64,000 nucleotides of DNA from positions 1 through 64,000 of the IMG/VR virus record IMGVR_UViG_3300047564_005433. One strand, 5' to 3'. Below are positions 6,626 through 16,510 of this stretch, in pieces. The DNA is from a virus. Position 1 is the stretch's first letter. The number at the start of each line of letters is the position of its first letter. A program made the position numbers and the translations under genes. Below the pieces are notes generated by a model. It ran no database searches, had not been told where the DNA came from, and saw nothing but the letters and a program-made list of their open reading frames with translations.

Positions 6626-6760
6626 TCAAAGGATGGTAATGAAGGAAAGGAAGAAGCTGCCTGCTTGTTTTGCTGCTGCTCGCAGGGCCTCGTCGTGGTT
6701 TGCTGCTTCAACGACAATACGCTGATTGTTGGAGCAATTGATGAAGAGAAAGCTTTTCAT
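6626..6760 (-). CDS. 44-residue protein of unknown function
   Basis: A short ORF (MKSFLFINCSNNQRIVVEAANHDEALRAAAKQ...) that follows the promoter-hairpin cassette at 6775-6806 and is the first gene of the unit running to 6018. It looks like a small alpha-beta protein. The ATG has the AAACC context without a Shine-Dalgarno sequence. No family recognised. Confidence 0.5.
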   Translation of the reverse strand: MKSFLFINCSNNQRIVVEAANHDEALRAAAKQAGSFFLSFITIL

Positions 6761-6774
6761 GGTTTTAGAAAGGA

Positions 6775-6806
6775 GAGGCTCGCGCCTCGTGAGATAACAA
6801 TACAGC
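6775..6806 (-). promoter_or_regulatory. Promoter with a GNRA-capped 5' leader hairpin (cassette 1)
   Basis: On the minus strand a -10 box TATTGT (6802-6797) is followed seven to eight bases later by the stem GAGGC-GCGA-GCCTC (6788-6775), which would form the extreme 5' end of the transcript. The gene at 6626-6760 starts 14 bases after the hairpin. A terminator lies directly upstream. The same arrangement recurs at 8038, 8483, 8973 and 14083. Confidence 0.5.
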
Positions 6807-6809
6807 ATG

Positions 6810-6829
6810 AAGGGGGCCGAAGCCCCCTT
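6810..6829 (-). terminator. Hairpin terminator after the 6856-7614 gene group
   Basis: AAGGGGGC (6810-6817) pairs with GCCCCCTT (6822-6829) around CGAA. It separates the upstream transcription unit from the promoter of cassette 1. Confidence 0.6.
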
Positions 6830-6855
6830 ATTAACAAAACGCAACAATGCCTTCA

Positions 6856-7158
6856 TCAAGCCAGTTGCCTTTGCAGGAAGTCCCAGGTCCACTTGCTCTT
6901 GGTGGAAGGGCGTAGCAGCTCGTAAGCCTCGTGATCGACGATGGTATCGCCTGCGCTGTCCACATGCCCTTCAATATCAAGCTGCCAGATGCCCTTGCAG
7001 GCCCCATCAGCCCCATAAATGCCGATGATGTGCTCTCTATCTTCCATGGCAAGCCTCACGTGGAAAATAAGCTGCTGGAGCGAAGCGGCCTGGTAGGAGC
7101 CCTTAGTGCAGGAGAAATACGGGCCGTTGTCTTGGAAGGTCTTGATGGTGGTGATCAT
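6856..7158 (-). CDS. Protein of unknown function
   Basis: The 100-residue product (MITTIKTFQDNGPYFSC...) has a central stretch DREHIIGIYGADGACKGIWQLDIEGH that looks like a small beta-rich domain, and a Trp-rich end (KWTWDFLQRQLA). It overlaps the upstream gene by four bases (ATGA) and is followed by the terminator at 6810-6829, so it is the last gene of its unit. Not recognised. Confidence 0.6.
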   Translation of the reverse strand: MITTIKTFQDNGPYFSCTKGSYQAASLQQLIFHVRLAMEDREHIIGIYGADGACKGIWQLDIEGHVDSAGDTIVDHEAYELLRPSTKSKWTWDFLQRQLA

Positions 7159-7379
7159 TGGTCGTAAGTGGAAAGGGGCTCGTCTTCAATGGAAAAGGCA
7201 AGTTGTTTGAGCTGATCCAGAGCAGCTTGGATAACATATCCTCTGCTAACAGAACTTTCGTCAAGCAGCTCTTCTAGCGCTCTAATTTCATCGTGCAGTT
7301 CTTCAATGGAAGAGAAAGTGCGTGCAGCATAGGGCACGCCATATTCATCTTCTGAAACAAAAGAAACGGGAAAAGGCAT
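7155..7379 (-). CDS. Small acidic helical protein
   Basis: The 74-residue protein starts MPFPVSFVSEDEYGVPY and then forms a long amphipathic segment, SIEELHDEIRALEELL, likely a coiled coil. Four-base overlap (ATGA) with the next gene and a 4-base gap from the previous one place it inside one operon. An upstream frame extension lacks an ATG. No family recognised. Confidence 0.55.
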   Translation of the reverse strand: MPFPVSFVSEDEYGVPYAARTFSSIEELHDEIRALEELLDESSVSRGYVIQAALDQLKQLAFSIEDEPLSTYDQ

Positions 7380-7383
7380 GGCT

Positions 7384-7614
7384 TTAAGGAGAAACAATGG
7401 TCCAGGAAAGATAGTTGTCAGAGTGACGAATAAGGCGAATGAATCCTCGCTCTTCGAGCTTTTCCATTGCCTTTAAATGATCTGCAAGTCTATTGCCTTG
7501 CAAGGGACATTTTGGAGCCTTGCATGGTTCATCTCCATGCTTTTTCTTGTGGGCTAAATAATGCAAATAGATGTTGCGTTGATTAATAGAAAGTGCAAGT
7601 TGTGAATTGTTCAT
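7384..7614 (-). CDS. Small protein with winged-helix-like sequence
   Basis: This 76-residue product (MNNSQLALSINQRNIYLHY...) has paired Cys (PCKAPKCPLQG) in the middle and then HLKAMEKLEERGFIRLI, which resembles the recognition helix and wing of a winged-helix DNA-binding fold. That is inference only. It overlaps the preceding small gene by four bases (ATGA). Confidence 0.5.
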   Translation of the reverse strand: MNNSQLALSINQRNIYLHYLAHKKKHGDEPCKAPKCPLQGNRLADHLKAMEKLEERGFIRLIRHSDNYLSWTIVSP

Positions 7615-7790
7615 AGTGCAGCCCATTCATGACGAATAGCGCGAATAGCTTTCACGTTCCAGCATTCAGGAAAACGATGCTCAGCCAGTGTTTTAGCTTC
7701 TTCTTCGCTGGTGGCATCAAGGTTTATAGTTTGCCAGTTGAAATAGATGTCGCCGTAGCGGTGCTCGATGGTAACAGAATAAGTGTGCAT
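7611..7790 (-). CDS. 59-residue protein of unknown function
   Basis: This frame (MHTYSVTIEHRYGDIYFNW...) codes a compact protein with a beta-hairpin start and a Glu-rich helix (SEEEAKTLAEHRFPECW), a layout common to small phage proteins that resemble the 6018 gene in style. The stop overlaps the next ATG (ATGA), which strongly supports that it is real although it is short. Function unknown. Confidence 0.55.
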   Translation of the reverse strand: MHTYSVTIEHRYGDIYFNWQTINLDATSEEEAKTLAEHRFPECWNVKAIRAIRHEWAAL

Positions 7791-7810
7791 TGTTTTAAGG
7801 AAGGATTAAA

Positions 7811-8020
7811 TTAGCCTTGTGCGCAACGCATAGCGTCTGCACGAAGAAGTCTTTCTACTGCCTCTGCATCAAGATCTACGTGACCAAACGGGCTTTCGTA
7901 GTCACAAAAATAAAATCGAATGCCTTCTGCGAGAAGAAGAGAAAGCATTTGCTCTGGCGTGCGTAGCTCAGCGTTAGCGACGAGCTGCAGTGCTTTTGCT
8001 TGGGTTTCGTTGAGGATCAT
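7811..8020 (-). CDS. Small protein of unknown function
   Basis: The product has 69 residues (MILNETQAKALQLVANAEL...), mostly helical, with LRTPEQMLSLLLAEGIRFY. It is the first gene behind promoter-hairpin cassette 2, and its ATG carries the CTAAAACC context. A 20-base gap separates it from the 59-residue gene. No family recognised. Confidence 0.5.
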   Translation of the reverse strand: MILNETQAKALQLVANAELRTPEQMLSLLLAEGIRFYFCDYESPFGHVDLDAEAVERLLRADAMRCAQG

Positions 8021-8037
8021 GGTTTTAGAGGAGAGGA

Positions 8038-8065
8038 GAGGCTCGCGCCTCATGAAAGAACAATA
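8038..8065 (-). promoter_or_regulatory. Promoter with a GNRA-capped 5' leader hairpin (cassette 2)
   Basis: Minus-strand -10 box TATTGT (8065-8060), then TCTTTCAT, then GAGGC-GCGA-GCCTC (8051-8038), identical in stem and loop to cassette 1. Start codon of the gene at 7811-8020 follows 17 bases later. Confidence 0.5.
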
Positions 8066-8073
8066 GTCTGAAA

Positions 8074-8091
8074 GAGGCCGTGATCGGCCCC
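8074..8091 (-). terminator. Hairpin terminator after the DnaJ-type zinc-finger gene
   Basis: GGGGCCG-ATCA-CGGCC followed by TCTTTC on the minus strand, ending the single-gene unit at 8102-8464. Confidence 0.5.
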
Positions 8092-8101
8092 GTTGTAACA
8101 A

Positions 8102-8464
8102 TCAGTCACAAAGCTGAGTTTTGATGCCAGTGGCAGCAGCGTTGCGCCACAGCTCACGAGCCTCTTGGGCATCGTCAATACGCTTGCACCACTTATCTTT
8201 GCCCCACTCTTTCATTTGGCCATGGGAGGGGCTGGTGTAGGAGCGCCAGGTGCGACAACGCAGGAAGGCATGCCAGAACTTGCCATTGAGCATGAACACT
8301 TCCAGCACCACGTCAGAGCTATCACCAATGAAGCTCTTGAAAGAGATGGTGCCAGTGCCGCTGCAGGCGAAGCAATCGCCGTTTGCAATGTGGCTGAAAT
8401 GGGGAAGCTTGCCAGAGCCGTTGCAGACGGGGCAGGTGGCAGTTTCGTGAGTGGTGGTGGACAT
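8102..8464 (-). CDS. DnaJ-type zinc-finger protein without a J domain
   Basis: The 120-residue protein carries two CxxCxGxG repeats of the DnaJ cysteine-rich kind, CPVCNGSGKL near residue 11 and CFACSGTGTI near residue 31, which together form one zinc site in DnaJ. There is no J domain, so it cannot act as a classical Hsp40. The rest has a basic, aromatic region (LRCRTWRSYTS). Similar small zinc-finger proteins are found in plants and cyanobacteria and often act in protein assembly or redox processes; a role here is speculative. It forms a single-gene unit with its own promoter-hairpin cassette upstream and a terminator downstream. Confidence 0.65.
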   Translation of the reverse strand: MSTTTHETATCPVCNGSGKLPHFSHIANGDCFACSGTGTISFKSFIGDSSDVVLEVFMLNGKFWHAFLRCRTWRSYTSPSHGQMKEWGKDKWCKRIDDAQEARELWRNAAATGIKTQLCD

Positions 8465-8482
8465 GGTTGGTTGCTTAACGAG

Positions 8483-8510
8483 GAGCGTCGCCGCTCATGA
8501 GAGAACTATA
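8483..8510 (-). promoter_or_regulatory. Promoter with a GNRA-capped 5' leader hairpin (cassette 3)
   Basis: Minus-strand -10 box TATAGT (8510-8505), the best match of the series, then TCTCTCAT and the stem GAGCG-GCGA-CGCTC (8496-8483). The stem has a different sequence from cassettes 1 and 2 but keeps the loop and position, which looks like compensatory change. Confidence 0.55.
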
Positions 8511-8522
8511 CAGCATGGCAAA

Positions 8523-8542
8523 GCAGGGCCTTACGGCCCCGC
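8523..8542 (-). terminator. Hairpin terminator
   Basis: GGGCC-GTAA-GGCCC, extended by AGC/GCT pairs and followed by TTTG on the minus strand, after the gene at 8571-8957. Confidence 0.5.
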
Positions 8543-8570
8543 TGCTGGCGTTGATATTTCGTTACAAAGC

Positions 8571-8957
8571 TCAGTCCCAGTGGTTGATGCGAAGCTGCTT
8601 GCCGCTCCAGATGCGCATGGTGCGTTGCAGTTTGCTGTTCCACAGCCATTCTTCACCATCGCGATCCGTCTTGATGCGGAAGCTCTTGACAGGAGCCTCC
8701 ACTAGCTCACCGCCTTGATTGTCAGCACGGTTCTGGAAGACCAGCTTGGGCTTGCGAGTGAGTTCGGGCACTGCGTGGCCGCCTTCAGGGCCGTTGTCCA
8801 CTTCATGGCTCTGAATCTGCTGCACCCAGGCAGTTTTCTCCGTGCAACGCACCACCACGTAGAAATCGACGATGGTCATGGAATAGCCCCATGAGCTGGA
8901 GAGGATGGTGCCAGGCTGAAGCTGGGTGCCTTGGAGGGGAGGAGCAACGAGGGTCAT
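8571..8957 (-). CDS. Protein of unknown function
   Basis: The 128-residue protein (MTLVAPPLQGTQLQPGTILS...) is predicted to be beta-rich: SWGYSMTIVDFYVVVRC, TAWVQQIQSHEV and KSFRIKTDRDGEEWLW form alternating strands, possibly an SH3-like barrel. No catalytic motif seen. It is a one-gene unit between the cassettes at 8973 and the terminator at 8523. A similar fold style appears in the 66-residue gene at 9080. Confidence 0.55.
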   Translation of the reverse strand: MTLVAPPLQGTQLQPGTILSSSWGYSMTIVDFYVVVRCTEKTAWVQQIQSHEVDNGPEGGHAVPELTRKPKLVFQNRADNQGGELVEAPVKSFRIKTDRDGEEWLWNSKLQRTMRIWSGKQLRINHWD

Positions 8958-8972
8958 GGTTTTTGATTGAGG

Positions 8973-9001
8973 AGGCGTCTCCGCCTGTGAGAAGAACAAT
9001 A
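8973..9001 (-). promoter_or_regulatory. Promoter with a GNRA-capped 5' leader hairpin (cassette 4)
   Basis: Minus-strand -10 box TATTGT (9001-8996), nine bases, then AGGCG-GAGA-CGCCT (8986-8973). GAGA is again a GNRA loop. The ATG at 8957 follows CCTCAATCAAAAACC. Confidence 0.5.
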
Positions 9002-9009
9002 CAGCATGG

Positions 9010-9030
9010 CAGGGCCTCTATCGAGGCCTG
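9010..9030 (-). terminator. Hairpin terminator after the 9080-9280 gene
   Basis: CAGGCCTC pairs with GAGGCCCTG around a short AT-containing loop; it separates the 66-residue gene from cassette 4. The T-run is weak. Confidence 0.4.
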
Positions 9031-9079
9031 TTACAAAGAGAAACATTTCATGTTTCCGACGAAGCGCAAGCGCTTCTGC

Positions 9080-9280
9080 TTAATAAAGGCTCTCGATGCG
9101 AAACGGGCGGAGCCTGCCCATGCGGAGCTTGTCTTCCTTGACAAATTGCTGGCTATTGGTTTTTGTATTCTTGATTTTATGCAGGCCAGTGTCAGTGATC
9201 TTCACCACTGTATATTCGCCTCTCCATTGTTGAAAGCCTGAATCGTAAAGATCAACGAGGGTTCCAATGGGGAAAGGCAT
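9080..9280 (-). CDS. Small SH3/KOW-like protein
   Basis: The 66-residue product (MPFPIGTLVDLYDSGFQQWRGEYTVVKITDTGLHKI...) has the sequence rhythm of a single SH3-like beta-barrel: a G-T-L-V-D-L start, a central WRGEYTVVKI strand pair and a basic end. Such small barrels bind nucleic acid or protein; nothing more specific can be said. Followed by the terminator at 9010-9030. Confidence 0.5.
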   Translation of the reverse strand: MPFPIGTLVDLYDSGFQQWRGEYTVVKITDTGLHKIKNTKTNSQQFVKEDKLRMGRLRPFRIESLY

Positions 9281-9375
9281 GATAGTATTTGTGTTCCCAA
9301 CAATTTCTTTGTGGGCGTTACCAGCGACGGAGCACGCTGTGAGGGCTAGGCCTCGTGAAGCCTAGCCCAGCTCTA

Positions 9376-9636
9376 CTATCGTTGCTGGTCGCAAATACCA
9401 GCGAGCATTTCGCCTGCGTATTGGTGAGCTTCACGAAGATTGTCAAGAGCTGCTTGGCGCTCGTCGCGAGCCTTGTAGAAAGCATCTGGTCCTTGAGGAT
9501 AAAAATCCCGACCATTAAGCTCGGCTTTTACTAGAGCATCAATGGCTTTGTCAATGGCTTGGTAAGCATTGGCGTAGCCGTCTCTGAGCGTGGTGAAGCC
9601 AGTGCCGTTAAGGTGGATGGTGGGGATGGTTGCCAT
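9376..9636 (-). CDS. Small helical protein of unknown function
   Basis: An 86-residue protein (MATIPTIHLNGTGFTTLRDGY...) with a long helical centre (NAYQAIDKAIDALVKAEL) and an Arg/Glu-rich segment (KARDERQAALDNLREAHQY). The segment looks like a helical hairpin. The ATG has the TCAAACC context. It stands as a single-gene unit behind a TATTGT -10 box at 9659-9664 and before the next cassette. Not recognised. Confidence 0.55.
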   Translation of the reverse strand: MATIPTIHLNGTGFTTLRDGYANAYQAIDKAIDALVKAELNGRDFYPQGPDAFYKARDERQAALDNLREAHQYAGEMLAGICDQQR

Positions 9637-9658
9637 GGTTTGAGGCGCGAACGAGGGA

Positions 9659-9664
9659 ACAATA
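9659..9664 (-). promoter_or_regulatory. -10 box of a degenerate cassette
   Basis: Minus-strand TATTGT followed by TCCCTCGTTCGCGCCTC and then AAACC-ATG. The right arm GCCTC of the leader hairpin is kept but the left arm is lost, so the 5' stem is not expected here. Confidence 0.4.
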
Positions 9665-9672
9665 CAAAAGAA

Positions 9673-9690
9673 AGGGGCCTGATGGCCCCT
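9673..9690 (-). terminator. Hairpin terminator of the 9704-10826 operon
   Basis: AGGGGCC-TGAT-GGCCCCT; on the minus strand followed by TTCTTTTG. It ends the five-gene operon whose last gene is the HicA-like one. Confidence 0.65.
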
Positions 9691-9703
9691 TTGTCACAAA
9701 GCT

Positions 9704-9895
9704 TTACAAAGACAAAAGTCGCTTGATGTCGCGCTCCACATTCTTCAAGCTGTGTCTGTCTGTCGTGCTTTTGCTGCAGACCAGCATTTTGCCAGAAGAA
9801 TGCTTAAAAACATAATGCTTTGTTTGTCTATGCAAAACAAAGCCATGCTTTTTAACAAGCGCAAACAATTCTCGTCTATTGTCCTTGAGAGCCAT
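9704..9895 (-). CDS. HicA-like protein (YcfA/mRNA-interferase fold)
   Basis: The 63-residue product contains the HicA-like core KHGFVLHRQTKHYVFKH, with Gly, then His at the position of the catalytic residue, followed by LVCSKSTTDRHSLKNVERDI. HicA toxins cleave mRNA, partnered by HicB antitoxin. No HicB-like gene is adjacent: the upstream gene, which overlaps by one base (TAATG), is 76 residues and does not show a HicB pattern, although it could act as a partner. Free-standing HicA-like proteins exist in phages, with unproved roles. It is the last gene of a five-gene operon. Confidence 0.6.
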   Translation of the reverse strand: MALKDNRRELFALVKKHGFVLHRQTKHYVFKHSSGKMLVCSKSTTDRHSLKNVERDIKRLLSL

Positions 9896-10125
9896 TAAGC
9901 GTCGCCAGCAAGTATTTGGCCAATTTCTGTTTCTGGGCCATCGCTGTAAACGAGGCAATTAGATTTCCAGGACAAAGGATTTTTACCTTCTCCCACCTCT
10001 TCCGACCAGATAGAAGGACGTTCGTTGGAGACTATTTCATTGGCGAAATCCTCCGCTTCGCAACTGTCTTCAGCCCAAACATAGGCTTGGTAGTTAATTT
10101 CAACAACGTACAGTTTCTTTTCCAT
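9895..10125 (-). CDS. Small acidic protein upstream of the HicA-like gene
   Basis: The protein has 76 residues (MEKKLYVVEINYQAYVWAEDSCEAEDFANEIV...). The start resembles the beta-alpha beginning of many small phage proteins (strand YVVEINYQAYVWAE followed by a helix EAEDFANEIV). It ends with EIGQILAGDA and overlaps the HicA-like gene by one base, so a functional pairing is possible. Not a recognisable HicB. The longer frame to 10143 lacks support. Confidence 0.55.
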   Translation of the reverse strand: MEKKLYVVEINYQAYVWAEDSCEAEDFANEIVSNERPSIWSEEVGEGKNPLSWKSNCLVYSDGPETEIGQILAGDA

Positions 10126-10127
10126 GA

Positions 10128-10334
10128 TCAAAGCACCTTCCAAATGTCATCTTGCAAAGCGTCTGCAAGCGTGATTAGCAAGTCTTTCTTGCTTTTATAA
10201 GCGGGCTTATTAACGCGGGAAAGAATAAAAGAGCGAGCAGAAGAACGATCATTGGAGCTGTAATCTTGCCATTTGTGCTTGGCATTGTCAGAAACCATTT
10301 TGGCAATGGCTTGTTGCGTTTTGGTGAGAGGCAT
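10128..10334 (-). CDS. Small basic protein of unknown function
   Basis: A 68-residue, lysine- and serine-rich protein (MPLTKTQQAIAKMVSDNAKHKW...), mostly helical, with RSFILSRVNKPAYKSKKDLL. The charge suggests nucleic-acid binding but no fold is recognised. It follows its upstream neighbour by 3 bases and precedes the next by 2. Confidence 0.5.
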   Translation of the reverse strand: MPLTKTQQAIAKMVSDNAKHKWQDYSSNDRSSARSFILSRVNKPAYKSKKDLLITLADALQDDIWKVL

Positions 10335-10337
10335 GGT

Positions 10338-10544
10338 TCAAAGATTTCGGGAGTGGATGTAAATAGACAAGCTTTTAATTTTGCCTTCTAACTTGCCAAT
10401 GTAATTAAACAGGCGCTCAAGCATCACGCCGTCTTCTTCCATTAGCTCTTCTGCTACTGGTCGCCCTTCGGGGAGCAAATACCGAGAAAACAGCACCCTG
10501 TCTCTGTTTGACATGCGTGGTTTGTTTTTACGAAAGAAGCGCAT
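10338..10544 (-). CDS. Small protein of unknown function
   Basis: 68 residues (MRFFRKNKPRMSNRDRVLFSRYLLPEGRPVAEELME...) with a basic N-terminus and a heptad-like tail (LERLFNYIGKLEGKIKSL) that may form a short coiled coil. It lies 3 bases after the SH3-like gene in the same operon. Not recognised. Confidence 0.5.
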   Translation of the reverse strand: MRFFRKNKPRMSNRDRVLFSRYLLPEGRPVAEELMEEDGVMLERLFNYIGKLEGKIKSLSIYIHSRNL

Positions 10545-10547
10545 TGT

Positions 10548-10826
10548 TCAGAAGACGAGGGTTTGTCCATTGGCTTTGATGCTTGTCACGCGCTCACAAT
10601 CAAACGAACGCCAAGCACCTTCCCCTTCTTTACGAGCGATGGAGAAATCACGACAACGGACAATGCTGGGCTTTTTGATTACCGTGCCAGTGCCCTTGAT
10701 TTCCTTGGTGTCCCAGGGATTGAACTGGAGCTTGCGCAGGGAACCGTCTGCCTTAACGAATTCCACTGAAACAATGCTGTGGCCAGCATTGAAGATGAAC
10801 TGTTTAATGCGGGAGGTTTTGTCCAT
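10548..10826 (-). CDS. Sm/SH3-like beta-barrel protein (WYL_2-like)
   Basis: The 92-residue protein begins MDKTSRIKQFIFNAGHSIVSVEFVKADGSLRKL and ends with GAWRSFDCERVTSIKANG. The pattern V-x-F-x-KADG-x-x-RK, a middle GTG, and the final WRSF-[DN] with ERV-I matches small Sm-like SH3 barrels annotated in phages and often compared with WYL proteins. These may bind nucleic acid or small molecules. It is the first gene of the operon down to 9704. Start ATG at 10826 is preceded by CAGCTCCTC with no Shine-Dalgarno. Confidence 0.6.
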   Translation of the reverse strand: MDKTSRIKQFIFNAGHSIVSVEFVKADGSLRKLQFNPWDTKEIKGTGTVIKKPSIVRCRDFSIARKEGEGAWRSFDCERVTSIKANGQTLVF

Positions 10827-10908
10827 GAGGAGCTGTCGCCAGCGAAGGAACGAGGAAGAAAGAAAGGGGGAGCCTCTTGCGAAGCTCCTTTCCGATCGAC
10901 CGAAGGAA

Positions 10909-11106
10909 CTATAGGCTCAACTGAGCGGGGCTGTCAAGCCTTGGTACGGGGAAGCCGTTGGCAATGCGGCAGTAGCGCTCAGGATGCAGGAGCATGCACT
11001 TCTCCAAGCCTTCCTTGTTGGGCAGCACGTTAGGGGAAGCTGCAATGGCAAAGGCACCTAGACCAAAGATGAGGCTTACGAGCAGGAAGGAAGCGGTGTC
11101 TTTCAT
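10909..11106 (-). CDS. Small secreted or membrane-anchored protein
   Basis: The product has 65 residues. The N-terminus MKDTASFLLVSLIFGLGAF followed by AIAASPN is a typical signal peptide or single membrane helix with an Ala-rich cleavage site. The mature part has two Cys (EKCMLLHPERYCRIANG) that could pair in the periplasm. It overlaps the RlpA-like gene by four bases (ATGA). Location and coupling suggest an envelope or lysis-related task, for example a partner of the RlpA-like protein. No family recognised. Confidence 0.6.
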   Translation of the reverse strand: MKDTASFLLVSLIFGLGAFAIAASPNVLPNKEGLEKCMLLHPERYCRIANGFPVPRLDSPAQLSL

Positions 11107-11456
11107 AGCTTTGAAATGCAAACGTTTGTAACGCCTTGCGAGGGGCGGGCAATACGAGAGAAAGCGCCGATGGAAAGATCGAGAATGCGCCCTCCGTAGA
11201 ATGGCCCGCGATCTGAGACGGTCAACACCACTTGCTTTCCATTGTCACGGTTCTTAACAAGAAGCTTCGTGCCAAATGGAAGCCATGGATGGGCGGCGAT
11301 CATTGCTTGGGGATTCATGGGGCGACCATTGGCCATTGTCTGCCAGGCGTAGCCATCACCATGCCCTCCATAGAAGCTTGCTTCACCACATTGGAGCGTT
11401 GCTGCTTGCGCCTGGAGAGGGCATAGCAGCAGGAGAGAAAAAAGGAAACGTTTCAT
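11103..11456 (-). CDS. Secreted RlpA-like double-psi beta-barrel protein
   Basis: The 117-residue protein starts with a clear signal peptide (MKRFLFSLLLLCPLQAQA-A) and continues with the RlpA signature: GEASFYGGHGDGYAWQT, TMANGRPMNPQAMIAAH, LPFGTKLLVKNRDNGK and SDRGPFYGGRILDLS. Bacterial RlpA proteins are septal lytic transglycosylases that cut denuded glycan strands. The Asp of SDRGPF and the His of AAH correspond to the usual active-site region. A signal peptide means export by the host Sec system rather than holin. It is coupled by ATGA overlap with a small secreted protein. The alternative is a superinfection or envelope-modifying role, rather than lysis. Confidence 0.85.
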   Translation of the reverse strand: MKRFLFSLLLLCPLQAQAATLQCGEASFYGGHGDGYAWQTMANGRPMNPQAMIAAHPWLPFGTKLLVKNRDNGKQVVLTVSDRGPFYGGRILDLSIGAFSRIARPSQGVTNVCISKL

Positions 11457-11587
11457 CAATTAGTACGAAAGAACTAGCGAGGGCCATGCCGTCTCCGACA
11501 AGGCAGCCCCTATTGTGCCATGAAACTGCTCGTTGCTGCCGAACGGACTTGGCGTGTTATGCTTTTGAAGCACTCGGCCCTAGCGGC

Positions 11588-11704
11588 TTAATTGCTGCTC
11601 TCGTCTTCGGGCGAGCCGTGAGGATGGGCGTTTCTGATGATGCGGGCGAAGATCGAACGATCTAGCCAAGGAGTTTTTGCATGGTCTCCTGCGAGGCGCA
11701 TCAT
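11588..11704 (-). CDS. Possible 38-residue protein
   Basis: A short frame (MMRLAGDHAKTPWLDRSIF...) begins with tandem ATGs preceded by GTAGGGAG, a reasonable Shine-Dalgarno. It ends with charged residues and has no recognised family. It sits alone between the RlpA-like gene and a bidirectional terminator at 11754-11771. Low confidence. Confidence 0.3.
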   Translation of the reverse strand: MMRLAGDHAKTPWLDRSIFARIIRNAHPHGSPEDESSN

Positions 11705-11753
11705 CTCCCTACGCAACTGATGGGAAACAGAAAAATCGGAGGGTGTAAAGAGA

Positions 11754-11771
11754 AGGGGCCGCAAGGCCCTT
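11754..11771. terminator. Bidirectional hairpin terminator
   Basis: AGGGGCC-GCAA-GGCCCTT with TTTTTCTTTT on the plus strand. No clear plus-strand gene ends here. The minus-strand side has only TTCTCTTT. Confidence 0.55.
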
Positions 11772-11826
11772 TTTCTTTTGCCAATACAAAGCCAGTTAGA
11801 CTCAGGCAATACAAGATCAGCCGATC

Positions 11827-11994
11827 ATGAAGCTTTCTGCAGAGCAGGAAAGAGAAAGGCTTAAACGATGGATGGCAAGCGGGGAAGTTTATGACCCTCG
11901 CAACGAAGAAGATTTTGACACTTGGTCCGTAGGGATGGAGCCTCTTCCTGGTGATACAACGTGGGCAAAGAAAAAGCCCCTTGAGGGGCTTTAG
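11827..11994 (+). CDS. Possible 55-residue plus-strand protein
   Basis: A frame encoding MKLSAEQERERLKRWMASGEV... with many charged residues and two Trp. Its last codons lie inside the hairpin AGCCCC-TTGA-GGGGCT that serves as terminator for the opposite-strand operon, and there is no ribosome-binding site, so it could be chance. Codon composition is gene-like. Confidence 0.35.
   Translation: MKLSAEQERERLKRWMASGEVYDPRNEEDFDTWSVGMEPLPGDTTWAKKKPLEGL
11975..11990 (-). terminator. Terminator of the 12062-13383 minus-strand operon
   Basis: AGCCCC-TCAA-GGGGCT followed by TTTTTCTTTG on the minus strand. A strong intrinsic terminator after the paralogue block. Confidence 0.7.
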
Positions 11995-12061
11995 CAGGAT
12001 TCTTGATAAATGGCGTTTATTGGAAATCCTGATAATTGACGAGGGCTCTCAGTGGGTCTGA

Positions 12062-12280
12062 CTACTGGTCTTCAAGCTCATCAGCGATGGCGAGTAAGTC
12101 GTCCGCGTCGCACTGCCATATGTCGTGGCCAGGATGCCTCTGCGTATGGGCTACAGCAGCACGAAGGGCGGCGGCAGCAATGTCCCTAGAGTCATTTAGG
12201 ATGTCATCTGGGCCATAGCAGCAAGCGCCATTGGCGGCATCCAACACAGCTTGGGCAGCAGGTGAAAGTTGTTGAGTCAT
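12062..12280 (-). CDS. SLAAQAV-type small protein, copy 1
   Basis: The 72-residue protein begins MTQQLSPAAQAVLDAAN, has a central DSRDIAAAALRAAVAH segment and ends LLAIADELEDQ. This matches a family of small proteins (start S-x-AAQAV, middle IAAAxLRAxA, end LLAIAxELE) that I know from cyanobacteria-associated phages and picocyanobacteria; the function is unknown. A second copy lies at 12782-13030 and the intervening and following genes belong to the same recurring set. It ends before the terminator at 11975. Confidence 0.7.
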   Translation of the reverse strand: MTQQLSPAAQAVLDAANGACCYGPDDILNDSRDIAAAALRAAVAHTQRHPGHDIWQCDADDLLAIADELEDQ

Positions 12281-12292
12281 TAGTTGATCGGA

Positions 12293-12763
12293 CTAAGAGG
12301 GCTGGGGCAAAGCGTTGGCGGGGAGCCAGTGGGAAAAGCCCAGCCATTGGACAGAAGGCAACACGTGTTGAGTTGGTACTAAATACCAAGATTCCCAAAT
12401 GTCGTCGTCTTCCGGGTTGTACTGGTGAAAACCCCAACACCTCCCTTCTTCATCGCAATCTTCCGGTCCTGGCAGGCGCTCGCTCACTGGGATGGACTGA
12501 GTTGAACTATCTGGAGATCCCGGATGGTTGCCCCAGCGAGCAAGGACAGCACGGGCATAGGCACGCCAGCTTTCGGGCTCACCGCTCTGGTCGATCTCGG
12601 TGAACAGCTCGTCAAGAGCCTCATCAGTCGGCTCCTCCGGCTCAGGCTCAGCCAGGGCGTCGCGGACACGCAGCATTAGGGGAGACAAGTGCATCCGATC
12701 TGTGGGAATACCGCTATCAATAGCGTCAACCAACTCAGCGCACAGTCGTTTGTAATCGGTCAT
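12293..12763 (-). CDS. DUF551-containing protein
   Basis: The 156-residue protein has an N-terminal helical region (MTDYKRLCAELVDAIDSG..., then an acidic EPEPEEPTDEALDELF) and a C-terminal DUF551-type domain: SIPVSERLPGPEDCDEEGRC...GFSHWLPANALP, with the signature ISVSERLP and the final HWLP. DUF551 is a small phage- and prophage-associated domain without known activity. It lies between the two SLAAQAV-type copies in one operon. Alternative start codons further in would shorten the helical region only. Confidence 0.7.
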   Translation of the reverse strand: MTDYKRLCAELVDAIDSGIPTDRMHLSPLMLRVRDALAEPEPEEPTDEALDELFTEIDQSGEPESWRAYARAVLARWGNHPGSPDSSTQSIPVSERLPGPEDCDEEGRCWGFHQYNPEDDDIWESWYLVPTQHVLPSVQWLGFSHWLPANALPQPS

Positions 12764-12781
12764 GGTGTTAAGTGAGGTGGA

Positions 12782-13030
12782 CTACTGGGCATAAAGCTCA
12801 TCAGCAATAGAAAGAAGTTGCTGACGGCATTTTTGTCTTGTGTCCCGCTCAAGCTGCCAACGCTCATCAAGAAAGTGAAGCGGCTCTTCTGGAACTATTT
12901 GATCTGCAACAGCACGTAAAACAGCGGCTGCAATCTCTTCAGCTTGGCAAGGATAGTCGTCTGGATCAAAAGAGCTGACATAAAGGGCAGCTTTTGCTAC
13001 TGCTTGTGCAGCAAGTGAAAGTTGAGACAT
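12782..13030 (-). CDS. SLAAQAV-type small protein, copy 2
   Basis: The 82-residue protein begins MSQLSLAAQAVAKAALYV and has YPCQAEEIAAAVLRAVADQI, a charged insert (HFLDERWQLERDTRQKC) and the end QLLSIADELYAQ. It is paralogous to the 12062-12280 gene along its whole length, except for the insert. The Cys residues differ between copies. Function unknown. Confidence 0.7.
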   Translation of the reverse strand: MSQLSLAAQAVAKAALYVSSFDPDDYPCQAEEIAAAVLRAVADQIVPEEPLHFLDERWQLERDTRQKCRQQLLSIADELYAQ

Positions 13031-13044
13031 AGAAGTGATGTTGA

Positions 13045-13383
13045 CTACTCGGGCAGGGATTCAAGAGCTGTCTTGATGGTTTCAAGGTCTTGGTGAAACT
13101 CTCTGGTGTCATCAGCGCCTGTGGCTATGGCATAGAGAGCACCCAGCGCCTGCTCCTTCAAGCTCGGCGGCTTGGTGCGGCGGGCGGTGCGGAGACCCCG
13201 GCTTAAAGTTTCCCAGTGATCTGCAACTAGCAACTCACAGCACGCCTCCAGCTCCTGATCAGCGCCAGCCTGGTAAGCCTGAACAAACAAAGAGTCAACA
13301 TCAGCGCCCATGGCTAGAGCCTGTTTGCACCAGGCATCAACCTGCCACTGCGGCGGAGTAATCGGATGGTTTTTGTCAGTCAT
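13045..13383 (-). CDS. Conserved cyanophage-type protein (HPITPP family)
   Basis: The 112-residue product starts MTDKNHPITPPQWQVDAWC and contains GADQELEACCELLV and TKPPSLKEQALGAL, ending in an amphipathic helix. The HPITPP start, the ELEACCE motif and the PPSLKEQAL block define a family I associate with picocyanobacteria and their phages, often next to SLAAQAV-type proteins as here. Function unknown. The ATG at 13383 is chosen because the upstream extension has no family similarity. Confidence 0.7.
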   Translation of the reverse strand: MTDKNHPITPPQWQVDAWCKQALAMGADVDSLFVQAYQAGADQELEACCELLVADHWETLSRGLRTARRTKPPSLKEQALGALYAIATGADDTREFHQDLETIKTALESLPE

Positions 13384-13417
13384 GAGAAAGAGAAGTGTGT
13401 AGAAATTGGCAATTTGG

Positions 13418-13591
13418 CTAGATGGAAGTGATGAGACGATAGCGCTTGAGGATTTCCTCTTGCTCTTTATCTCGCCAGTATTGAAGCCTACGCTCAAGCC
13501 TTGCCGTGGCAAGTTGCATTACGCTTCGCTTGTCATGGTCCCAATCAAGCAATGGATCAGAATTGCTGGCCAAAGAGCTGCTCGTAGGCAT
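13418..13591 (-). CDS. Small basic protein of unknown function, start uncertain
   Basis: A 57-residue frame (MPTSSSLASNSDPLLDWDH...) whose C-terminal half (MQLATARLERRLQYWRDKEQEEILKRY by pieces ARLERRLQYW and KEQEEILKR) is a strongly charged helix. It overlaps the upstream gene by 35 bases at this start; a TTG farther in would remove the overlap. Not recognised. Confidence 0.45.
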   Translation of the reverse strand: MPTSSSLASNSDPLLDWDHDKRSVMQLATARLERRLQYWRDKEQEEILKRYRLITSI

Positions 13592-13733
13592 GAGAGATAG
13601 CGCGAAATTTCCTAAGATGATGATCCCTATCTTTCGCCAACAATTCCGCGAGATCTTTAACGAGCTGGTCGCCATTGTCATTGTCAAAGTATTCAAAAAT
13701 AGCGTCCGTAAGTGTGTCTTTGGGCGTGCTCAC
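13557..13733 (-). CDS. 58-residue protein with GTG start
   Basis: The frame begins with GTG (MSTPKDTLTDAIFEYF...), overlaps the preceding stop as GTGA, and is preceded by AAAGGAGG, a near-perfect Shine-Dalgarno that lies inside the end of the upstream gene. The protein is acidic then basic (AELLAKDRDHHLRKF) and mostly helical. Function unknown; the translational coupling makes it credible despite its size. Confidence 0.6.
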   Translation of the reverse strand: MSTPKDTLTDAIFEYFDNDNGDQLVKDLAELLAKDRDHHLRKFRAISHAYEQLFGQQF

Positions 13734-14062
13734 AGTTTGCCTCCTTTAATGGCATTGTTGTAGTTCATCAGATATTCTTCAAAATCAGCGCCAGTGGGAG
13801 CTTCTTTACAAAGCTCTTCATGGTTCTCCTTGAGCATTTCCAAGCTCACAACAAATGCACAACGAATGCGATTCAAAGCAAGTTGTTGCACGAGATTGGG
13901 CTCTTCATCAATAGCCTTTTCAATGGTGCAAATGTATTCCTGCAGATCAGTCATGGCAAAGCTGCGCGTCACCATTGGCTGACCAAAGCTCATGGCAAGC
14001 TCGTTGTCCTTAAAAGCAGAAACGGGATGGTTCGGCAGCAGGTGATTGAAAGAGACGGTCAC
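13730..14062 (-). CDS. Protein of unknown function with GTG start
   Basis: A 110-residue protein if started at the GTG at 14062 (MTVSFNHLLPNHPVSAF...), or 74 residues from the inner MTDLQEYICTIEKA. The second half is helical (CAFVVSLEMLKENHEELC). I prefer the GTG because it follows the leader hairpin of cassette 5 at the usual distance and the peptide in between looks protein-like. The gene carries the Shine-Dalgarno of its downstream neighbour in its last codons. Not recognised. Confidence 0.5.
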   Translation of the reverse strand: MTVSFNHLLPNHPVSAFKDNELAMSFGQPMVTRSFAMTDLQEYICTIEKAIDEEPNLVQQLALNRIRCAFVVSLEMLKENHEELCKEAPTGADFEEYLMNYNNAIKGGKL

Positions 14063-14082
14063 GATGGAAAAGCGGAGGGCTA

Positions 14083-14110
14083 GCGACGTTCGCCGTCGCA
14101 TGGCCATAGT
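14083..14110 (-). promoter_or_regulatory. Promoter with a capped 5' leader hairpin (cassette 5)
   Basis: Minus-strand -10 box TACTAT (14110-14105), six bases, then GCGACG-GCGAA-CGTCGC (14099-14083). The stem is one pair longer and the loop is GCGAA, again containing GCGA. Confidence 0.45.
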
Positions 14111-14123
14111 ATGCCATCAAAAA

Positions 14124-14142
14124 GGCCCCCATCAAGGGGGCC
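14124..14142 (-). terminator. Strong terminator of the 14155-14577 gene
   Basis: GGCCCCC-TTGAT-GGGGGCC followed by TTTTT on the minus strand. Confidence 0.7.
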
Positions 14143-15754: not shown

Positions 15755-16510
15755 TCAATAATCATCTTCATTAATTGTTTGTAAAGGCATGGTTTCAGGA
15801 ATGGGCTCACTTTCTGGCTCGGCATCAAAGCTGATGGTCTCAGCAGACGCAAGGAGAGAATTGCCACGTCGTTCTTCCGTAGCCTTCGCTTCCTTCTCCT
15901 TTTCAATGGTGGAAGACAAGTCTTTTAGGAAGGTTCGGTAGGAAGTGTCTTGGTTTTCTACTGGCTTGATTTCGTTCAAGCCCAGCAGCTTTGCTTGTTC
16001 CACCAAGGAGTTTTTGGCCACGTTAAGGAACGAAGCATCACCAGCGCTTTCTTCTATCTTCACCATTTCCTTTCCGCCATCGTCACCGCCGTCCATGATG
16101 GTCACTGTCTTTTTGCGCTTACTGGTTTCAAAGCTTGCCAATGCAAGATCTTTTAGGTCCATTTGCTCTTTCAACAAACGCGCCCGATGAGTGTCTTGAT
16201 TCTTGAGAATCTCTTGCGTGTATAGGTCTCTGTTGAAATGCCTATCTCCATTGACTGTTTCTTTGCTTAGTTTTAGTACATTCGCGATCTGACGATTGCT
16301 CATCTTCGCTGCCAACAATTCTTGCACCATCCATCGCCTTACGCCAAGCATTTCCTTTGTATAAATGCCAGCACCATGCGTGCCGCCCTTTGATTTATGC
16401 TCGCGGATGGTTTCGTATTGCGTAATTGGTACGCCTGCCTTTTCTAAGGCTTTCCTCGCATAAGCTTCTTCTTCTTCAGGCGTGGCGAATTCAATCTCTG
16501 GACGAGGCAT
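15755..16510 (-). CDS. Helix-turn-helix protein, possible small-terminase-like DNA-binding protein
   Basis: The 251-residue protein has an N-terminal acidic stretch (ATPEEEEAYARKALEKAG), a predicted DNA-binding HTH around residues 63-90 (LLAAKMSNRQIANVLKLSKETV), then a long helical region with LLKEQMDLKDLALASF and charged C-terminal sequence. Terminase small subunits share an N-terminal HTH of this kind followed by a helical oligomerisation part, but no large subunit is visible in the window, so a regulatory protein is equally possible. The order around it (between small accessory genes) does not decide the matter. Confidence 0.5.
   Translation of the reverse strand: MPRPEIEFATPEEEEAYARKALEKAGVPITQYETIREHKSKGGTHGAGIYTKEMLGVRRWMVQELLAAKMSNRQIANVLKLSKETVNGDRHFNRDLYTQEILKNQDTHRARLLKEQMDLKDLALASFETSKRKKTVTIMDGGDDGGKEMVKIEESAGDASFLNVAKNSLVEQAKLLGLNEIKPVENQDTSYRTFLKDLSSTIEKEKEAKATEERRGNSLLASAETISFDAEPESEPIPETMPLQTINEDDY

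Follow-up and report, generated by a model that had tools for sequence, protein, structure and literature searches.

Stem-loops at the 5' ends of bacterial messages are described as stabilizing the ompA and papA mRNAs of E. coli and the aprE mRNA of B. subtilis (papers cited in PMC3997798). Here we describe a repeated cassette that places a comparable hairpin just behind a -10 hexamer, found in a window of 64,000 nucleotides (64 kb, positions 1 to 64,000 of the 73,391-base virus record IMGVR_UViG_3300047564_005433 in IMG/VR) and in relatives of that record. Like the ompA, papA and aprE stem-loops, the cassette hairpin is short, lies a few nucleotides (nt) from the predicted 5' end, is free in its stem sequence, and has an open ribosome-binding region downstream; unlike them, it is repeated at many genes within a single virus, is linked to a promoter, and is limited to GCGA or GAGA loops (together, GMGA), and its stabilizing effect is putative. 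We put the chances at about even that this repeated 5'-terminal hairpin shields phage mRNAs from decay. Knowledge of regulatory RNA in picocyanobacterial siphoviruses is scarce, and the element bears on how phage messages outlast host messages.

The boxB hairpin of lambdoid nut sites shares with the cassette a 5-bp stem and a GNRA-like loop in phage leader RNA, and one of our units, unit E, has the pentaloop GCGAA; the cassette hairpin differs in standing at the very start of the RNA with no boxA ahead of it and in being multicopy, every copy having a promoter to itself, and no N protein is known here. Phage N4 promoters have 5 to 7 bp hairpins, and those used by the N4 virion RNA polymerase are likewise small and GC-rich, but the cassette hairpin follows a sigma-70 -10, acts in the sense RNA, carries a tetraloop, and comes with no such polymerase gene. 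The PhotoRC-II, manA, and wcaG motifs of cyanophages are also structured RNAs in putative 5' untranslated regions (Weinberg et al. 2010, PMC2864571); those motifs, seen in marine samples and cyanophages, stand ahead of psbA or metabolic genes, whereas the cassettes match no Rfam family (none up to E = 5). Within the open-licence literature, we found no description of the element.

A cassette of hexamer and hairpin at gene starts

In order, the cassette consists of a -10 hexamer, 7 to 9 nt (sometimes 11–12), a stem of 5 to 7 bp with a GCGA or GAGA loop, 14 to 20 nt, and a start codon. We scanned 18 contigs retrieved with the protein of one window unit (unit D), 64 retrieved with another gene, and 29 retrieved with the motif, plus Synechococcus phage S-CBS4. 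This phage forms a cultured pair with its host, Synechococcus CB0101. The record is tied to it by the genes of the window (ribonucleotide reductase, primase/helicase, Sak, head protease, tape measure, tail fibres) and by the unit D protein, which is 77% identical, over its length, to its S-CBS4 counterpart. Megablast of 14 kb against known phages gave no match. The cassette is present in S-CBS4 and in many IMG/VR relatives, with 89 distinct units and 30 distinct stems.

Short GC-rich hairpins could simply be expected in a GC-rich phage region, and the leaders by themselves fold with energies that are ordinary relative to shuffles (z -0.4 to -1.8), a result that would suit chance and that we count as evidence neither way. 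We addressed this question with controls on strand and distance. When TATWGT was followed by GMGA 13 to 15 nt on, a stem of at least 5 bp was present in 49/59 distinct sense cases from the window and relatives, compared with 0/24 when the distance was 23 to 35 nt and 2/38 on the opposite strand. When sites were chosen without regard to pairing (a GMGA loop, a start codon 13–20 nt after it, and a TATAAT-like hexamer before it), 37/126 sense sites had five perfect pairs and another 40 had one non-Watson-Crick pair of five (77/126 together), while the antisense sites yielded 0/51 perfect and 2/51 with one non-Watson-Crick pair. The cassette is far above chance, and together with the loop and covariation results given below, these controls refute the chance explanation, to which we assign next to no probability. 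A first pattern scan of IMG/VR was rejected; it returned mostly chance single matches, the -10 sequence plus GMGA alone not being specific.

Terminator-like hairpins lie upstream of 69/89 units, compared with 22/89 random 50-mers. A minority class has 11 to 12 nt from the -10 to the stem, often with the AUG just 5 to 9 nt past the hairpin. Separately, the region's best consensus promoter, TTGACA-18-TATAGT (11/12), lies at 10937-10826 on the minus strand and is followed by an 8-bp GCAA hairpin (10888-10869) and, five bases ahead of the ATG, by a 4-bp GCTG GCGA CAGC hairpin (10843-10832); relatives carry similar GMGA hairpins 5 to 9 nt ahead of the AUG in the same gene array, which constitute a second leader class.

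The window units stand on the minus strand at the head of small genes or short operons without assigned function, and they have stems of 5 to 6 pairs, loops of GCGA, GAGA, or GCGAA, and a terminator-like hairpin upstream. A first-pass annotation of this DNA had listed five such units, each preceded by a terminator; every hairpin and hexamer was found where it had placed them, and terminator-like hairpins (those ahead of A, B, D, and E read from the sequence) do precede all five. Unit A (6775..6802) has its -10 TATTGT at 6802-6797, a predicted +1 A at 6790, the hairpin GAGGC GCGA GCCTC at 6788-6775, and an ATG at 6760; the covariance model described below scores it at E 8e-9, and the hairpin ahead of it, AAGGGGGC TTCG GCCCCCTT, is at 6810..6829. 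Unit B (8038..8065; E 7e-9) has TATTGT at 8065-8060, a predicted +1 A at 8053, the same GAGGC GCGA GCCTC hairpin at 8051-8038, and an ATG at 8020, with its upstream hairpin at 8074..8091. For unit C (8483..8510; E 1.9e-7), TATAGT is at 8510-8505, the predicted +1 A at 8498, the hairpin GAGCG GCGA CGCTC at 8496-8483, the ATG at 8464, and the upstream hairpin, AGCGGGGCC GTAA GGCCCTGCT, at 8522..8543. Unit D (8973..9001; E 1.5e-6) combines TATTGT at 9001-8996, a predicted +1 A at 8988, the hairpin AGGCG GAGA CGCCT at 8986-8973, and an ATG at 8957; the hairpin ahead of it at 9013..9028, GGCCTC GATA GAGGCC, has a short T tract.

Unit E (14083..14113) lies behind a terminator at 14124..14142 and has a predicted +1 A at 14101, the hairpin GCGACG GCGAA CGTCGC at 14099-14083, and a likely GTG start at 14062. 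The -10 boxes proposed earlier hold for units A to D, but at unit E the proposed TACTAT gives way to CATACT (14113-14108), which we prefer because it yields the common 8-nt spacing and because distant orthologs of unit E have TTGACY exactly 17 bp upstream of it. A further cassette lies outside the window, in the last 9.5 kb of the record, which were also read; it stands on the plus strand, at about 71.84 kb of the record (L146:7939-7953), where a full -35 is present (TTGACA-17-TTTAAT), followed by GGGGC GCGA GCCCC.

RNA-level selection and promoter signals

The claim that the stems differ yet stay paired because structure is selected had been tied to a refuting test, the search for compensatory changes in related phages, and the claim came through it. 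We aligned the leaders of unit D orthologs by orthology, ignoring pairing. The stems (AGGCG/CGCCT, GGGGC/GCCTC, GGCCG/CGGTC) were paired in 100% of cells, 4/5 pairs were altered on both sides, and the covariation score, of a kind that relatedness inflates, was 0.865 compared with 0.34 ± 0.07 for shuffled alignments and at most 0.24 for slid ones. Across 33 diverse units, with rows chosen by pairing, 5/5 pairs were altered on both sides, and the similarly inflated score was 0.779 versus 0.263 ± 0.036. Orthologs of units C and E have other stems, likewise paired with compensatory changes. Despite this relatedness the stems do not derive from one change, given 30 different stems among 89 distinct units.

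Imperfect pairs among near-paired sites were G·U or U·G in 38 cases and A·C or C·A in 4; many of the G·U cases are related by descent (GGGGC/GCCTC, GGCCG/CGGTC), and G·U also occurs in further stem types (GAGGC/GTCTC, GAGGC/GCTTC, GGGGC/GTCCC, CAGGC/GTCTG, CGCCC/GGGTG). Tolerance of G·U and not of A·C indicates selection on the sense RNA, as a DNA palindrome would give no such asymmetry. A covariance model built from the 33 units, a search that had also been proposed as a check, found 57 units at E ≤0.1 among 27 relatives, each of them on the coding strand, and four units in S-CBS4. The S-CBS4 hairpins lie at about 66675, 67137, 67590, and 68728 of NC_016766. With compensatory changes at paired positions of the sense strand, the hairpin acts as RNA, and it is the RNA shape that is selected.

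An inverted repeat beside a promoter could also be a DNA element, either an operator palindrome that adjoins the -10 or an N4-like hairpin promoter for a phage polymerase. In the cassette, however, the arms drift and the centre is fixed, the reverse of what an operator would show, and neither the wobble asymmetry nor the restriction of all model matches to the coding strand fits a DNA element. An N4-type promoter is further opposed by the gene content: neither a single-subunit nor a multisubunit RNA polymerase gene was found in the record itself, S-CBS4, or two relatives, and a PF00940 search for a T7-like polymerase, which matched the positive control Syn5, matched none of these. We rejected both candidates on the wobble asymmetry, the fixed centre with drifting arms, and the absence of a phage polymerase, and consider DNA-level explanations nearly excluded.

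Without a phage RNA polymerase gene, it is presumably the host polymerase that reads the cassette promoters. The hexamer varies by lineage and gene (TATTGT, TATAGT, TAGGAT, CATACT, CACAAT, TTTAGT, TTCTAT) and its distance to the stem is nearly constant; the -10 score has its maximum 14 nt before the stem for GNGA hairpins alone and not for other loops. TTGAC occurs 37 to 41 nt ahead of the stem base in 35/198 distinct units, which corresponds to a 17-bp spacer to the hexamer, compared with about 1 of 198 units expected (estimated from a 5-mer frequency of 1/1024); one example is TTGACA-17-TATTGT-9-GAGGC GCGA GCCTC (L320). This spacing indicates that the hexamer is a genuine host-type (sigma-70) -10 and reinforces the promoter reading of the first-pass annotation, although the -35 evidence comes from relatives: window units A to D have no evident -35, and a terminator occupies that place.

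If the -10 occupies -12 to -7, the predicted start of transcription is the A of YCA and the stem would begin at +2 to +4, so that promoter geometry would place the 5' end of the message at the hairpin. Predicted transcripts of units A to D fold with the hairpin from +3, and the AUG is unpaired in B to D. Two side observations concern the promoters of relatives. A terminator-like hairpin exactly fills the 17-bp spacer between TTGACA and TATCTT or TATGTT in three of them (L016:3256-3285, L017:2831-2862, L018:2136-2165), putting promoter and upstream terminator on the same DNA. In some cassette lineages (L022:6020-6065, L015:3948-3993, L191:11270-11303), the -10 is overlapped by operator-like palindromes (GGCGGCATCATGCCGCC; GAACTAACTTTAGTTTC), an arrangement that would suit several distinct repressors working on promoters with a common hairpin.

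Possible roles of the hairpin

Each unit would be a compact gene-start cassette that the host polymerase reads. Its -35 region or spacer is occupied by the terminator of the gene before it, a sigma-70-type -10 comes next, and transcription would start on an A, usually of YCA, so that a short GMGA-capped hairpin would begin 1 to 4 nt from the transcript's 5' end, followed by a pyrimidine-rich leader of 14 to 20 nt and an AUG mostly without a Shine-Dalgarno (SD) sequence. The hairpin would then hide the 5' end from 5'-end-dependent decay (the RNase E 5' sensor, RNase J, or any pyrophosphohydrolase), which would let the short mRNAs of the phage last, and with a terminator hairpin at the 3' end the message would be closed at both ends. 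We hold 5'-end protection to be the most likely role because it requires nothing beyond what is shown here. In Prochlorococcus MED4, the median mRNA half-life is 2.4 min (PMC10989914). The cassette genes are probably expressed early, judging from neighboring replication genes and their small products of unassigned function.

Several findings weigh against protection. Cyanobacteria have RNase E and RNase J and lack close RppH homologs (PMC10989914), which leaves it unclear which decay step the hairpin would block. The minority of units with 11 to 12 nt between -10 and stem would begin with about 5 unpaired nt. The narrow distance from hairpin to AUG is what a translational role would predict. 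Above all, a protective hairpin needs no particular loop, and here the loop is constrained. With hexamer, spacing, and start codon held fixed, sense tetraloops were GCGA in 46/73 cases and GAGA in 17/73 (63/73 together), with GCAA once and UUCG or GAAA never; there was no GNRA among 15 antisense cases. The terminators ahead of the cassettes use other loops, such as TTCG, GTAA, GAAA, and GATA, so the restriction is a property of the cassette. Stem sequence is free provided that pairing holds, and the loop is fixed; this restriction, which the first-pass annotation had missed, matters for the mechanism and points to recognition.

A stem that drifts around a constant loop could be read by a loop-binding factor. 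The GMGA hairpin might be the binding site of a phage or host RNA-binding protein, as boxB is for N in lambda, acting on RNA polymerase (antitermination), on translation, or on stability; a factor encoded by S-CBS4-like cyanophages or derived from the host would mark the mRNAs of all cassettes, which would then be selectively stabilized, translated, or antiterminated. The resemblance to boxB in stem length and loop, including the pentaloop of unit E, and the terminators adjoining every cassette are consistent with such a factor. Antitermination fits poorly, as the 1 to 5 nt of predicted RNA before the hairpin leave no room for a boxA, and as each gene has its own promoter past the terminator it would hardly be needed. 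No candidate protein was identified, in a search that was not exhaustive. We regard a loop-reading factor, boxB-like or translational, as a tentative possibility, well short of an even chance, and give it that much because the loop restriction is the main fact that 5' protection leaves unexplained. If correct, the cassettes would form a regulon defined by one structure, and the virus could distinguish its messages from host ones. The restricted loop would also serve as bait for the factor.

Alternatively, the hairpin could aid initiation on leaders lacking an SD sequence, by keeping the 14 to 20 nt before the AUG open or by docking at the upstream edge of the 30S footprint. The gap from hairpin to AUG, mostly 14 to 20 nt with a mode of 16 to 17, is 69% C+U, an SD-like motif occurs in only 8/89 leaders, and the unpaired AUG of the predicted leaders B to D agrees with this role. 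On the other hand, the sub-class with the AUG 5 to 9 nt past the hairpin does not fit, and the position of the hairpin is as constant relative to the start site as it is to the AUG. We consider a purely translational role unlikely. Because the leader repeats and covaries, its predicted starts are precise, and S-CBS4 and CB0101 are cultured, 5' protection and these alternatives are directly testable. For expression in cyanobacteria, the cassette also offers a short natural part that combines promoter and leader.

Site F, distribution, and neighboring genes

A sixth, degenerate copy had been proposed at 9664-9640 on the minus strand. At this site (site F, 9640..9664; ATG 9636; terminator at 9671..9692, likewise read from the sequence) TATTGT is present, but the hairpin is absent. 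The same hairpin-less leader, TTGTTCGCGCYTC, is found in about eight relatives, including orthologs in L014, L175, L301, L308, and L319, while other orthologs of the site F gene have full hairpins (e.g., GTTGG GCGA CCAAC and GAGGC GCGA GCCTC). Site F is an alternative leader state and not a decayed local copy, and the contrast among orthologs shows that individual genes can do without the element.

Within the genomes tested, the element occurs only in the S-CBS4-like lineage. Proteins of the window have counterparts in 28 of the 29 contigs that the motif alone retrieved, and the remaining one (L321) is a 1.3-kb stretch of L175, a contig already known as a relative. S-CBS2, S-CBS1, Syn5, and P-SSP7 gave no significant match to the cassette model. 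A host origin was also rejected, as 14 cyanobacterial genomes, including Synechococcus and Cyanobium, gave no significant match (best E 0.38, with 150 first-look candidates scored per genome) in a scan whose model includes the phage -10 and could miss weak host relatives.

We also considered a link between the cassette and a gene at 15755-16510 (minus strand), whose S-CBS4 counterpart gp086 is labelled 'RNase E' (phrog_645). The protein has no Pfam match and instead shows, by eye, a helix-turn-helix (HTH)-like stretch (MSNRQIANVLKLSKETVN); the label is probably wrong, and we dropped the link. Finally, paired CxxCxGxG-like motifs occur in the product of unit C (8102-8464, minus strand), which also matches Anti-TRAP (PF15777) below threshold.

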